From: a virus
Strand: one strand, 5' to 3'
Length of the DNA stretch: 36,217 nucleotides
Virus record (IMG/VR): IMGVR_UViG_3300048591_000748
Location: 1 to 36,217 of that record
Each line of letters begins with the position of its first letter. The stretch's first letter is position 1. Under the pieces are notes generated by a model. The model did not search any database. It was not told where the DNA came from and was given only the letters and a program-made list of their open reading frames with translations. The position numbers and the translations under genes are program-made. Of this stretch, positions 24,945-29,089 are shown piece by piece.

Positions 24945-26142
24945 CGATATATTCCAGCACCGCCGCCTCGGGCTGCGTCGAGTTCCCCTCGAACCGCATG
25001 CGGACTTGGCCGGAACGGATGGCGCCCGCCAGGACGCCTTCAAAGTCACGGAAGTCGGGGAAGTACGAGTGGATGTGGTGGTAGGCCTTGGTATACGCGA
25101 TCTTCCCGTGCCGCTTGATGAACAGGATTAGGCGCTCGGCTTGCAGGCTTTCCTCGGATCGGCCGATCCGAGAGAAGACCTTGTCGAGGTCCGCTTCCGT
25201 GGCCTCGAGCATGCGGTCCGCCAGGGCAAGGTCAATCTCCGTAATCTCGAGGTCGTCACCTCGGGAGACGGACAGGATCGCGGCCAGCTTGTGCATGTGC
25301 GTCTGCTTCCGGGCGAGGTACCCATCGAGGCGCTCGTCATCAATTCGCTGATTGTGGGTGGTCCACATCTTCTGGTACCAGTCCCGCCCCCAGGCTCGGG
25401 CCGCCGGCGTGAGCACGCATGGGCCGGTCAGGTTGAGTGACATGTGCTCGAGATCGGCGGTCAGACGGGCAGCGAAGTCCTCGTAATCCTCCCGCGTATG
25501 CTCATCCGGGTACGCGATGAAGTTCTCCTTCTTATCCGCGTAGACGAAGACGCAGCGGGAAGTGAATCCGCCGCCGACCGTCGCACTGGGCATGTTATCC
25601 GCGATCCAGTGGGGGGTGGTACACCCGATCATGTTGATCCAGGGCGCCGCGATCACGTCGGTCCCACTCCCCTTGGTGATCTTCTCGAAGCTCGAGCGGC
25701 CATCCCAGAGGGCGATGAAGAGGTTCACCATGTCGCGGTCCTGCGGGTTGAGCAGGTTGCCTAGCTCGCCCGACGCGAGGGTGATGGGGGACATCGGCAG
25801 CCATTCCTCGCCGAACAGGAACTCTTCCTGCGCCTCCGCGAAGGAGGTGACGAGGGCTTGCCAGGTCACCACGTCCGGCCCGAACCGGATGCCGGGAACC
25901 TTCTTCACCAGGTCCATCCCCATGTCCATCGTCGTGGTCTTGCTGATGATCCCTGGCGGCGCGACGAAAATCACGAAAAAATTCGGATACCACTTGAATC
26001 TTTTCATGTCGATCCAGACTTTACGGCGAAGTACAGATGCGATGCAAGAAACTCCACACCAGAAATGCATCAACTTCGGCGCCTCAGTGCCGGCGGTGAA
26101 CTCGAGGTAGGAGGGAATCCAGTCGGGGAATTGTCGGGGCAT
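24931..26142 (-). CDS. DUF3987-like replication ATPase (primase-helicase type)
   Basis: This is a 403-residue protein starting at ATG 26142, overlapping the polymerase stop (TGATG). The N-terminal region reads Y-L-E-F-T-A-G-T-E-A-P-K-L-M-H-F-W-C-G-V-S, then V-W-I-D-M-K-R-F-K-W-Y-P-N-F-F-V-I-F. Next comes a P-loop-like A-P-P-G-I-I-S-K-T-T-T at residues 61-71, typical of the DUF3987 family of phage and plasmid NTPases linked to DNA replication. The Gly-Lys of a canonical Walker A is Ser-Lys here. The C-terminal part is helical and could bind DNA. It probably serves as the replicative helicase or loader for the adjacent polymerase; no separate primase or helicase was found. A start 15 nt upstream is also possible. 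Confidence 0.75.
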   Translation of the reverse strand: MPRQFPDWIPSYLEFTAGTEAPKLMHFWCGVSCIASVLRRKVWIDMKRFKWYPNFFVIFVAPPGIISKTTTMDMGMDLVKKVPGIRFGPDVVTWQALVTSFAEAQEEFLFGEEWLPMSPITLASGELGNLLNPQDRDMVNLFIALWDGRSSFEKITKGSGTDVIAAPWINMIGCTTPHWIADNMPSATVGGGFTSRCVFVYADKKENFIAYPDEHTREDYEDFAARLTADLEHMSLNLTGPCVLTPAARAWGRDWYQKMWTTHNQRIDDERLDGYLARKQTHMHKLAAILSVSRGDDLEITEIDLALADRMLEATEADLDKVFSRIGRSEESLQAERLILFIKRHGKIAYTKAYHHIHSYFPDFRDFEGVLAGAIRSGQVRMRFEGNSTQPEAAVLEYIGADK

Positions 26143-27548
26143 CAGCAGTGCCCCCATGAGGTGCTTGACGTTTTCGTTCCGCTCGGAATGATCAGCGGAT
26201 CATCGTAGGGCAGCACGATCTGGGAGGCCTCCTCGAGCTGGGCAAGGCTTTCGGCCCGCCTGTGCATCGGATATTGTCCGACCAGGCTGTCGTGCACCTG
26301 AAGGAGGATCTGGATATGCGGGTAGCGCTCGTAGACATTCATCCAGATCCGATTGATGTACAAAGCTACTGTGCTTTGCGGCAGCCACGCGATAGCCTCC
26401 CGGCAAGTCGCATCATCCACATGACCGAAGTAATAGCGACGGTAGCCAAAAACATTCTGAACAAACCGTCGGGAGCGAAGAGCGTCGCAGAACTCTTTCT
26501 GCCATTCCTTGATCCGCCGCATACGCCCCAGGTACCAAGCCTGGGCACGCGTTGCCTCGTGGACGGAGAGGCCCAGCCGGGCGGAGAGTCCGTGTGGTGT
26601 TCCCAGGTAATGCGTGCCATGGGCGAAGCTCTTGAAGGTTCGGTACTTCGGATTTTCGCTTCCGTCGGCTCGAGTCTTTGTAATGGTTGGGTCACGATAG
26701 AACTCCCGCGCAATTTCAACATAGGGGTCCTTGCCTTCGCGCAACATCGCCTTCATCTCAGGCTCATCCGCTTCCCAGGTGACGATCCGCAGGTCCGCCT
26801 TGCTGAGGTCCTTGTCGAAGATCTCGTAGCCGGGATCGGGCACGAAGATCTTGCGGACGTTGGGCAACGTCAAACGGCCAAGCAGAGCAGTTTCCTCGTC
26901 CTCAGGGTCGTCATCTTCGCCGCCTTTGGGAACGTTCTGTAGGTTTGTCCCAGACCCGAAAACGTTCTTAGATGAGGAAAAACGAAAGGTCTCTGCCCCG
27001 CAAATATTGTTGCTTGTCCGCATTCTCTGATCAATGTCAAGGGGCGCATTGACAAAGGTGCGTAGAAACACGCCCAAACTTCTGTATTCTGCGATAGCTT
27101 TGAGGAGTGGGCGAAGGATTGGCTCACGGCGAGCTATTAGTATGAGTGCCTCTGCGTCGCAGGTTAGGTTGCCTGGCACGCCTTTCTTTGCTCGCTTAAA
27201 GTTCGGTCGCTGCTTAAGGTCCTCATAGAACAGCTTGGCCATCTGGACTCTAGATCCAGGATTAAGCGGGTGGCCGAGGACGCGCTCGAAGAAGGCCTCT
27301 CGCTTACCGAGTTCGTCCATCAGTTCGTTGGCAAAACTTTGGCGGACCTTCTTGTCCACCGCGATGCCGCGCTGCATGCACTGGAGGACCGGCCAGAAGA
27401 ACTTCTGCTGGAACGCATCAACGGACTCGAGGCCGAGTTCGGCGATCGTGCGGGTCTCGACTTCGCCGCACTCCCGCGTCCGCACGCAATCCAGGCAATT
27501 GTACTTCCAAAGGTCTTCTTCTGTCTCATGGATATTAGACTGAGCCAC
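26142..27548 (-). CDS. Family A DNA polymerase, C-terminal part (exo III motif plus polymerase)
   Basis: Read from GTG 27548, 4 nt after GGAGG, giving 468 residues. Y16-N-C-L-D20 is the exonuclease III motif of the 3'-5' proofreading domain. Motif A is D-L-S-K-A-D-L-R. The O-helix is R-T-F-K-S-F-A-H-G-T-H-Y-L-G, and motif C is Q-V-H-D-S. These are the polymerase catalytic Asp residues and dNTP-binding Lys/Tyr. Aligned on the Lys, a His stands where E. coli Pol I has Phe762. The frame stays open to 27719, but that part is out of frame with a real HNH protein. The remaining exonuclease motifs are in the gene upstream of the HNH gene, so this is one half of a split polymerase. Replication of the phage genome is the expected role. 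Confidence 0.85.
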   Translation of the reverse strand: MAQSNIHETEEDLWKYNCLDCVRTRECGEVETRTIAELGLESVDAFQQKFFWPVLQCMQRGIAVDKKVRQSFANELMDELGKREAFFERVLGHPLNPGSRVQMAKLFYEDLKQRPNFKRAKKGVPGNLTCDAEALILIARREPILRPLLKAIAEYRSLGVFLRTFVNAPLDIDQRMRTSNNICGAETFRFSSSKNVFGSGTNLQNVPKGGEDDDPEDEETALLGRLTLPNVRKIFVPDPGYEIFDKDLSKADLRIVTWEADEPEMKAMLREGKDPYVEIAREFYRDPTITKTRADGSENPKYRTFKSFAHGTHYLGTPHGLSARLGLSVHEATRAQAWYLGRMRRIKEWQKEFCDALRSRRFVQNVFGYRRYYFGHVDDATCREAIAWLPQSTVALYINRIWMNVYERYPHIQILLQVHDSLVGQYPMHRRAESLAQLEEASQIVLPYDDPLIIPSGTKTSSTSWGHC

Positions 27549-27963: not shown

Positions 27964-27964
27964 G

Positions 27965-29089
27965 TCAGCCACCTACCTTCCATGTTGTCTTATCTGGCTT
28001 CCACTGTACGTAATGTTGGCAGTAAAGGGATGCGAGGAAATCAAGAGACTTGGGCAGGCCGCAGAACACAGAGTGGTGAGCGATCATTGTATCCTGGGCG
28101 ACGCGAGGAGTGAAATGCCAGTGCCTGTAGGTGTATTGGCAGTCGTACAAAAGATTCTGACCGCGGACTTTGACTTTCGGATGGGTGAGTAGGCAGTAGA
28201 TCAGCCAGACAATATGGGCCTCTTCTTCTTCGCTCCAGTATCCGTGGGTGTGACCGCGTTCCATGAAGGGAATGCAGATGGCCTCGGTCTTACTCCAAGA
28301 GATTCCGATGCACGAGATGTGGCCGGCGGCGGTCTCAAGGTCGAAGTCAATCCACTCTTCTTGGCCGGACTCGACCAAGCTGGTAAGCATCGTGAGCGTG
28401 TCGAGAGCTGTCTGCAGGCTCGGCCTGACAATAAAGTTCCATTGTGGCTCACTCCCGTAGTCCGCCGACCCGCGTTCCCGCGCCGCTCTCTTCAGGTCGT
28501 GTACGGTGATATGTCGCTGGGCCATGTCGCGCATGACCAGTGCGGGGTGAAGGATCGGAATAACTTTGGTCGTCGGCGGGGTCCACCCAGGGCGGATCAG
28601 CTCCGCTGGCCAGAGTTCGACTGGGACCTGGAGGCGGAGTTGGCTGCCGCGCCACTTGCCGATCCCCCAGGCGCCGGTTAGGGCCCACAGCGCTGTCGCG
28701 CCTGCGGCGACGATCACGTTCGGCTGGACGAGGTCGATCTCCCGCAGGAGGCGGTCCACGCCCGCAAGGACAATGGGCTTGACCCAGCGGTCCCGCCAGC
28801 GGATCATGTCGGGCTGGATGTCCTTGCGCTTAACCGTGACCCATCGCTCGATGTCGTTGTAGGGCGGCCGGGAGTTTACAACGTTCGTCGTATAGCACTC
28901 GGACCGCATGATGCCCGCCTCGTGGAGCATGCGGTTGAGTTCCTGGCCCGAGAGGCCTTGAAAGGGTAGGCCGGTGCGTTCCTCCTCCTGCCCCCAGGCC
29001 TCGCCTACGATCATGATGTGGGCGTTAGTCGGTCCGTCTCCACTGTGAGCATGAAGGGCCGGCGGTGCGGACGTTGTCACTTGCGTCAT
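27965..29089 (-). CDS. UDG-like domain fused to the exonuclease part of a split family A polymerase
   Basis: This is a 374-residue protein. Residues 28-52 (V-G-E-A-W-G-Q-E-E-E-R-T-G-L-P-F-Q-G, then S-G-Q-E-L-N), 67-75 (T-T-N-V-V-N-S-R-P), 130-139 (G-A-T-A-L-W-A-L-T-G) and 180-184 (L-H-P-A-L) are the motifs of the family 4/5 uracil-DNA glycosylase superfamily. The four Cys of the iron-sulphur cluster in family 4 are not evident. Residues 246-252 (W-I-D-F-D-L-E) form exonuclease motif I. G-Q-N-L-L-Y-D at 310-316 is motif II, and S-L-D-F-L-A-S-L-Y at 348-356 lies just before the end. The protein stops abruptly at W-K-V-G-G, exactly where the HNH gene begins. Motif III and the polymerase domain continue in the gene at 26142-27548. 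Confidence 0.85.
   Translation of the reverse strand: MTQVTTSAPPALHAHSGDGPTNAHIMIVGEAWGQEEERTGLPFQGLSGQELNRMLHEAGIMRSECYTTNVVNSRPPYNDIERWVTVKRKDIQPDMIRWRDRWVKPIVLAGVDRLLREIDLVQPNVIVAAGATALWALTGAWGIGKWRGSQLRLQVPVELWPAELIRPGWTPPTTKVIPILHPALVMRDMAQRHITVHDLKRAARERGSADYGSEPQWNFIVRPSLQTALDTLTMLTSLVESGQEEWIDFDLETAAGHISCIGISWSKTEAICIPFMERGHTHGYWSEEEEAHIVWLIYCLLTHPKVKVRGQNLLYDCQYTYRHWHFTPRVAQDTMIAHHSVFCGLPKSLDFLASLYCQHYVQWKPDKTTWKVGG

Follow-up and report, generated by a model that had tools for sequence, protein, structure and literature searches.

A family A phage DNA polymerase encoded in two pieces around an HNH gene, with its proofreading motifs divided between two predicted chains

Can one proofreading nuclease site be shared by two polypeptides, and was an HNH gene needed to separate them? 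These questions are raised by a locus of a 36,217-bp virus record, which may be a fragment and which was analysed over its whole length (hereafter the window). The following features were considered:

29440..30300, minus strand: separate DnaQ-like exonuclease (phrog_192, E 2e-39; exodeoxyribonuclease X and PolIII epsilon models), with a provisional start at TTG as listed
27965..29089, minus strand: UDG-exo, 374 aa, a family-4 type UDG plus the N-terminal part of a 3'-5' exonuclease domain, with the C-terminal end ..VQWKPDKTTWKVGG* (aligned to intact relatives)
28334..28342, minus strand: exonuclease motif I, D250 and E252 (UDG-exo alignment)
28142..28144, minus strand: exonuclease motif II, D316 (UDG-exo alignment)
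27969..27979, minus strand: SD-like purine-rich stretch AAGGTAGGTGG (direct reading)
27535..27963, minus strand: HNH-type homing endonuclease gene, 142 aa (PHROG matches, relatives)
27622..27624, minus strand: residue L114 of the HNH protein
27553..27557, minus strand: GGAGG ribosome-binding site of the polymerase remainder, within the HNH gene (direct reading)
26142..27548, minus strand: polymerase remainder, 468 aa from GTG, comprising the last (C-terminal) part of the exonuclease domain and the complete polymerase domain
27489..27503, minus strand: exonuclease motif III, Y16-x3-D20, numbered from GTG (polymerase alignment)

Layout of the locus and position of the break

UDG-exo, read from 29089 to its TGA stop at 27967-27965, matched PF03167 (E 2.4e-22) and the DNA polymerase family phrog_17 (E 3.6e-18). 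The polymerase remainder matched PF00476 (E 2.8e-34, above the cut-off) and also phrog_17, and keeps the invariant family A residues when aligned with its relatives. By sequence, the outer two of the three genes correspond to one family A polymerase. The spacing given in the preliminary description was borne out by direct reading: the HNH ATG (27963) lies 1 base past the UDG-exo stop, and the HNH gene, ending in TAA at 27537-27535, overlaps by 14 nt the polymerase remainder, which has its own GGAGG and its GTG (27548-27546) in the HNH 3' end. The purine-rich stretch is placed within the last UDG-exo codons (K-V-G-G), 5' of the HNH ATG. No second family A polymerase was found in the 36,217-bp record, possibly a fragment; an intact copy elsewhere had been named as a finding that would speak against the split.

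Motifs I and II were invariant among 14 relatives in the UDG-exo alignment and motif III among 15 relatives in the polymerase alignment, which confirms their assignment to the upstream and the downstream protein, respectively; DxE, D and Y-x3-D, the motifs of one proofreading site, are thus all present but divided over two chains. Since one open frame spans the junction in intact relatives, the split is real and nearly lossless: WKDDGKxW(x4)EDQLWxYN in intact proteins corresponds to WKPDKTTWKVGG* / MAQSNIHETEEDLWKYN in the window, in agreement with the earlier statement that hardly any residues are missing. Differences from the intact polymerase L003 by codon position (.29/.25/.55 for the exo part,.20/.18/.55 for the pol part) are mostly at third positions, as expected if both halves behave as coding genes under selection.

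The split loop directly precedes the helix with motif III. In an AF2 model of L003 (pLDDT 91), which matches Klenow structures, the split falls in a loop (pLDDT 76-77) that precedes helix 367-394. A second split hotspot, inside the polymerase domain, lies in the disordered loop 568-582 of the same model and is used in L025, L191 and L266.

Recurrence of the split and spread of the HNH gene

A split in the same loop was found in 13 distinct phage polymerases (window included), against 102 distinct one-piece relatives, among which L002, L003 and others are orthologues that carry empty alleles at the split site. Recurrence in another 12 distinct polymerases is more than chance would give, and the split point, initially described as unusual for a family A polymerase, is instead a recurrent hotspot in this group. 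The gap holds related HNH genes in 4 of the 13 (window, L037, L192, L193), other genes in 3 (one being the isolated Caulobacter phage Kuura) and nothing in 6. The halves of 6 of the 13 split genes lie 0-3 nt apart or overlap, so these 6 must be translated as two proteins. A scan of bacterial genomes gave four distant loci only.

The HNH protein matched phrog_3377 (E 8.3e-28), with four HNH-type PHROG families at E < 1e-20. It has an N-terminal Cys/His cluster and an HNH core, its structure model has a strand-strand-helix end, and it gave no Pfam match and no significant match to solved structures in the PDB by sequence or by fold. Its relatives come from an alignment-based scan, a single-sequence query having found almost nothing; in the scan with the HNH alignment only, 5 of the best 80 matches lay in or beside this polymerase gene. 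Those of L192, L193 and L037 occupy the same site of other polymerases, and HNH genes are also found 3' of the polymerase gene in L086, L080, L037, L146, L164 and L194, and 5' of it in L092.

HNH identity was 61% for L192-L193 (27/25% for exo/pol), 54% for window-L193 (30/26%) and 55% for window-L192 (50/43%); in the most distant pairs, HNH genes are thus 54-61% identical as compared with 25-30% for the surrounding polymerases. This excess of similarity in the HNH genes over their host polymerases is the sign of homing into one site, and shows that the HNH gene moves between phages independently of its host gene. The window copy may no longer cut, since it has L114 where 82 of 83 motif matches of relatives have D or N.

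The two-chain model and its alternatives

We consider it likely that the locus encodes a two-subunit family A replicative polymerase whose halves reassemble, and that the HNH gene is a free-standing (or decaying) homing endonuclease gene. UDG-exo and the polymerase remainder would be made from one message, itself presumed, by successive starts, with ribosome-binding sites located in the ends of the preceding genes; the halves would associate through formerly intramolecular contacts, and the exonuclease site on UDG-exo would be completed by motif III of the polymerase chain. Cutting would be tolerated in the loop ahead of the motif III helix, and the HNH subfamily would home to this loop and to other spots in or beside the same polymerase gene. 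All three proofreading motifs are kept in 13 of 13 split polymerases, a conservation from which we infer that the halves most likely reassemble; recurrence of the same cut in related viruses likewise argues that two pieces assemble into a working enzyme. Proofreading by the split enzyme and cleavage by the HNH protein are predictions from sequence.

The preliminary description had the polymerase split by the HNH gene. The two-piece polymerase with an HNH gene between its parts stands; the HNH gene as the necessary cause of the split in the window does not, because the junction sequence of the window also occurs in five split polymerases that have no HNH gene. Six split genes are without HNH, so that HNH insertion is not the only, and perhaps not the first, cause. 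The HNH gene of the window sits exactly at the start-codon position used in L058 and L016; with the shared junction, this makes it just as possible that the polymerase gene of the window was already split when the HNH gene entered.

A variant of the two-chain model, differing in the order of events, is accordingly quite conceivable, if somewhat short of probable: the window would have taken its junction, by recombination, from split phages that lack an HNH gene, with the HNH gene arriving later at the polymerase start codon. The junction WKP(D/E)(K/R)xxWKxGG*/..HETx..xW is common to the window, L016, L058, L072, L080 and L115, which do not form a clade when the junction is left out of the polymerase tree (AU p 0.0069, dlnL 458); a single origin of these cassette-type splits by descent was rejected on the polymerase tree. 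In five of the six the junction ranked first of up to 849 sequence windows for split-over-intact similarity, and in L016 it ranked ninth. Around the HNH gene, TGA-C-[ATG..HNH..GTG GCT] CAG of the window aligns with TAA-C-ATG-CAA of L058. However, the same pattern would be seen if the HNH gene had spread the junction by co-conversion and then been lost. The K-x-G-G tail, which, itself or in a near form, is also present in other cassette-type split genes, owes its codon likeness partly to a shared need for a ribosome-binding site, and protein homology alone was rejected as the source of the GG* likeness, part of which is the common GGAGG-type site. Moreover, HNH genes lie in the junctions of L192 and L037, which do not have this sequence, so HNH insertion can probably split an intact-type gene by itself, as in L192. 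More tentatively, and with some doubt on our part, the junction may be a transferable stop-start cassette (WKPDKxxWKxGG* / M..HETEEDLW) that recombines between unrelated phage polymerases, the HNH genes being carried along or having once driven the transfer.

It is unlikely that the polymerase remainder acts on its own and does no proofreading, with the DnaQ-like exonuclease (29440-30300) having taken over this function and UDG-exo surviving only for its UDG. Such a gene does lie directly upstream in the window and adjoins 4 of 11 split as against 10 of 102 intact genes, and those intact genes belong to the superclade in which most splits are found. Against it, motifs I-II and III persist in every split polymerase, also where no DnaQ-like gene was seen (L016, L072, L080, L115, L037), and a useless N-terminal tail would not retain Y-x3-D.

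There is very little to suggest that the HNH gene lies within a group I intron whose splicing would join the halves, the arrangement of SPO1 or Pf-WMP3. HNH-bearing introns do occur in DNA polymerase genes of SPO1, SP82, Bastille and Pf-WMP3 (PMC3428280), but Rfam gave no match in 27300-28200 at the gathering threshold or even at E 5, the insert is taken up by the HNH ORF, which runs into the downstream ORF, each half has a start, a stop and a ribosome-binding site, and six relatives are split at the same place without any insert. The splicing of the halves that had been considered at the outset thus has no recognisable intron behind it. An intein or split intein (MIJ3 PolB type, PMC6892783) was rejected because the upstream chain ends 10 residues past its last invariant residue (K364) and in the downstream chain 13 residues precede the first invariant one (W14, numbered from GTG), which leaves no room for splicing blocks. 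A common programmed frameshift was rejected because the phases of HNH-free splits differ (+1 in L016 and L058, -1 in L072 and L115, and in L080 the same frame interrupted by a stop). It is hardly credible that the arrangement is an artefact of assembly or sequencing, or that the polymerase is a decayed pseudogene: although the window is a single metagenomic contig, contigs of separate metagenomes (L192, L037) have the same layout, L016 and L017 are near-identical in sequence and come from different metagenomes, all catalytic motifs and the codon-position bias are kept, and a frameshift through sequencing error, also considered earlier, does not fit a split that recurs in 12 other polymerases, isolated phage Kuura included.

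Comparison with known systems and implications

A free-standing endonuclease in a fragmented replication gene is already known, and the window is a variant of such arrangements. In Aeromonas phages 25 and 44RR, the family B gene 43 is split into 43A and 43B, with the seg43 endonuclease in the gap of phage 25 and an untranslated spacer in 44RR, and in phage 25 the two products, gp43A/43B, purify together and are active as a polymerase (PMC2988022). As here, a replicative polymerase is encoded in two cistrons, an endonuclease occupies the gap in one relative and is absent from another, and the order of events is equally unclear. That case concerns family B, a GIY-YIG (Seg) endonuclease and few phages, whereas the present one concerns family A fused to UDG, an HNH gene and 13 polymerases, and here the cut divides three motifs of one exonuclease site.

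The analogy drawn earlier with Aeromonas phage Aeh1 is supported by the literature: nrdA is split by mobE (HNH), and the split enzyme reassembles and is active (PMC2988022). Both cases have a free-standing HNH gene in a functionally critical region of an essential enzyme, but the enzyme differs, and insertion is accepted as the cause in Aeh1 while it is a candidate cause in the window. In the OM43 phages MEP401 and MEP402 and their relatives, a family A polymerase is found in two ORFs around a small ORF, for which an intron was suspected by the authors (PMC10580990); most of that group thus shares the two-ORF layout with an extra gene between, but the split is inside the polymerase domain, like that of L025, L191 and L266, and leaves the exonuclease whole. 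Phage DNA polymerase genes also carry group I introns that encode HNH endonucleases, namely I-HmuI, I-HmuII, I-BasI and I-PfoP3I (PMC3428280). These endonucleases likewise target phage family A polymerase genes, with the same insertion site in divergent phages, but reside in self-splicing introns, whereas here there is no intron and the product stays as two chains. Lastly, free-standing HNH genes cluster near phage DNA polymerase genes (IPA-HNH, HEG islands; PMC10448857), as do the 3' and 5' cases described above, while in the window the HNH gene is within the polymerase gene.

The same polymerase exists in nature as a series of forms (one-piece, two-piece and HNH-bearing), with which several questions can be tested: whether two chains can share a nuclease active site, how a homing gene can enter an essential gene when there is no intron, and whether the gene stays fragmented after the element is lost. 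If the junction is a cassette, it would convert a one-chain proofreading polymerase into a two-subunit enzyme; if UDG-exo is detachable, proofreading and uracil surveillance could be tuned apart from synthesis. The repeatedly broken loop also marks a practical place at which to divide proofreading polymerases for the study of two-part forms.

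The split polymerase locus and the loop that is cut

The polymerase of the window, a virus record of 36,217 bp that may be incomplete or a fragment, is encoded on the minus strand in two pieces with an HNH gene between them, and direct reading of the sequence gives the following features:

29089-27965, minus strand: UDG-exonuclease protein, 374 residues
27963-27535, minus strand: HNH gene, 142 residues, starting one base past the UDG-exonuclease gene
27557-27553, minus strand: GGAGG ahead of the polymerase GTG
27548, minus strand: GTG of the polymerase remainder, within the 3' end of the HNH gene

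All coordinates and residues of the preliminary description, in which a family A polymerase was seen as split by an HNH gene through its proofreading site, were borne out on re-reading. By Pfam and PHROGs the halves are assigned to phrog_17, to family A polymerase and to the UDG superfamily, and exonuclease motifs I and II (D250, E252, D316) and III (Y16, D20) are invariant among relatives.

In viral-contig relatives a single ORF spans the junction (typical sequence YWKDDGKxW(x4)EDQLWxYN). The single gene is the ordinary state of this polymerase, being found in 102 of 116 distinct sequences having both parts (63 one-piece against 11 split below 80% identity) in a phage sample that is non-random, is no unbiased census and had one of its scans seeded with split members. 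Splitting at the same loop was found in 13 polymerases, window included, and other places are also used.

Split places in the window and in relatives (L-numbers denote loci)
Same loop, nothing between halves: L016/L017, L058, L072, L080, L115, L086
Same loop, HNH between halves: window, L037, L192, L193
Same loop, YspA/SLOG-family ORF (4643-4987): L044
Same loop, two small ORFs each: L123, Caulobacter phage Kuura (L027)
Behind motif III: L252 (with HNH), MW202554/L274
Polymerase domain, behind NLQN motif (recurrent): L266 (HNH), Vibrio phage VS-ABTNL-3 L025 and L191 (other genes)
Between UDG and exonuclease: L046 (HNH-like ORF present)

The gene filling the L044 gap is no endonuclease. MW202554 is a complete circular phage genome, in which a zinc-ribbon stretch of NrdR-like appearance (2886-3137) lies between the UDG-exonuclease ORF (through motif III) and the polymerase ORF.

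The one-piece L003 protein was modelled with AlphaFold (mean pLDDT 91.2), and its model matches Klenow-type structures. The split maps to the loop directly before the motif III helix (367-394), with pLDDT of 76-77 around 351-370, and the NLQN place adjoins or falls within a disordered stretch (568-582); no other internal part of the model is as weak as these two. The stretch linking exonuclease helices E and F in the DpoZ structure is mobile, and it varies across PolA enzymes (PMC8599892); the split loop probably corresponds to this region. The cut point, previously regarded as odd, is thus only half so: it divides an active site, but the loop that it runs through is flexible.

The HNH gene

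The HNH gene is probably a homing element of the polymerase gene. In a scan using the HNH alignment alone, with no polymerase information, the relatives that ranked highest were those of L192 and L193, each located between UDG-exonuclease and polymerase, and matches in L252, L266 and L194 also lay in or directly behind the polymerase. HNH identity greatly exceeded that of the exonuclease and polymerase parts of the host gene: 61% (HNH core) versus 27% and 25% for L192-L193, 54% versus 30% and 26% for window-L193, 60% versus 29% (exonuclease) for L037-L193, and 55% versus 50% and 43% for window-L192. Related HNH genes also occur just 3' or 5' of one-piece and split polymerases. An HNH gene lay inside or at most 1.5 kb away in 4 of 11 split versus 4 of 102 intact cases (Fisher p 0.003, with kinship ignored and the HNH profile seeded from the same loci). 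HNH genes close to DNA polymerase genes are already known from other phages (PMC10448857).

Two residues past the invariant arginine the window HNH has L, where relatives have D or N in 82 of 83 motif matches and K in one; its activity may possibly have been lost. A second HNH gene (32477-32899, minus strand), its core about 42% identical to the first, adjoins a Sak4-like ATPase gene (32896-33789), outside any recognisable split gene. In L193 the 3' ends of the UDG-exonuclease and HNH genes (2050-2095 and 2520-2565) repeat each other (VNFHDIKENS/VKFNDIKENS), at the DNA level too, which looks like copying of the host gene's end by the insertion.

Origin of the junction

With the junction left out, polymerase and exonuclease trees (two of the three being quick ones, with modest support in places) put the window among one-piece L002, L003, L004 and L005. 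Its junction (WKPDKTTWKVGG*/..HETEEDLW), by contrast, looks like the junctions of L016, L058, L072, L080 and L115. These six, a group defined by the junction, form no clade when junction columns are omitted (AU test, p 0.0069, log-likelihood difference 458), and well-supported branches force at least seven changes of the split label. When similarity was scanned in 30-column segments with gap columns removed (up to 849 segments), the junction ranked first of all for likeness to the rest of the split genes in five members of this group and ninth in L016.

The second gene of L058 starts TAA-C-ATG-CAA-GCC-AAC-AAA-CAT; in the window, TGA-C-ATG begins the HNH gene and the polymerase reads GTG-GCT-CAG-TCT-AAT-ATC-CAT. 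The HNH gene thus occupies exactly the position of the L058 second-gene start codon. This pattern fits both HNH entry into a ready-made gap and HNH removal; gene 43 of phages 25 and 44RR poses the same puzzle over the order of events (PMC2988022). The L192 gene was most likely split by the HNH itself, because its DDQLW start is of intact type and its sister L022 is one-piece.

Expression and proofreading

The three genes would most likely be translated successively from one message; on direct reading, each carries in its final codons the putative ribosome-binding site of the gene that follows. For the six HNH-free split genes, whose halves overlap or lie 1-3 nt apart in differing phases, introns and a common frameshift are excluded.

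In a rival reading, proofreading could be supplied from outside by a DnaQ-like exonuclease, whose gene (29440-30300, minus strand) is the next one upstream of the split polymerase. The only sampled intact loci in which such a gene was seen belong to the superclade around the window. The product of a neighbouring gene (30272-31633, minus strand) joins a ParB N-terminal domain to an N6/N4 DNA methyltransferase; L016 and L192 also have proteins like it close to the polymerase. All three exonuclease motifs (I, II and III) are kept in 13 of 13 split polymerases, which argues for retained proofreading; if it is retained, the two chains would have to associate to complete the proofreading site.
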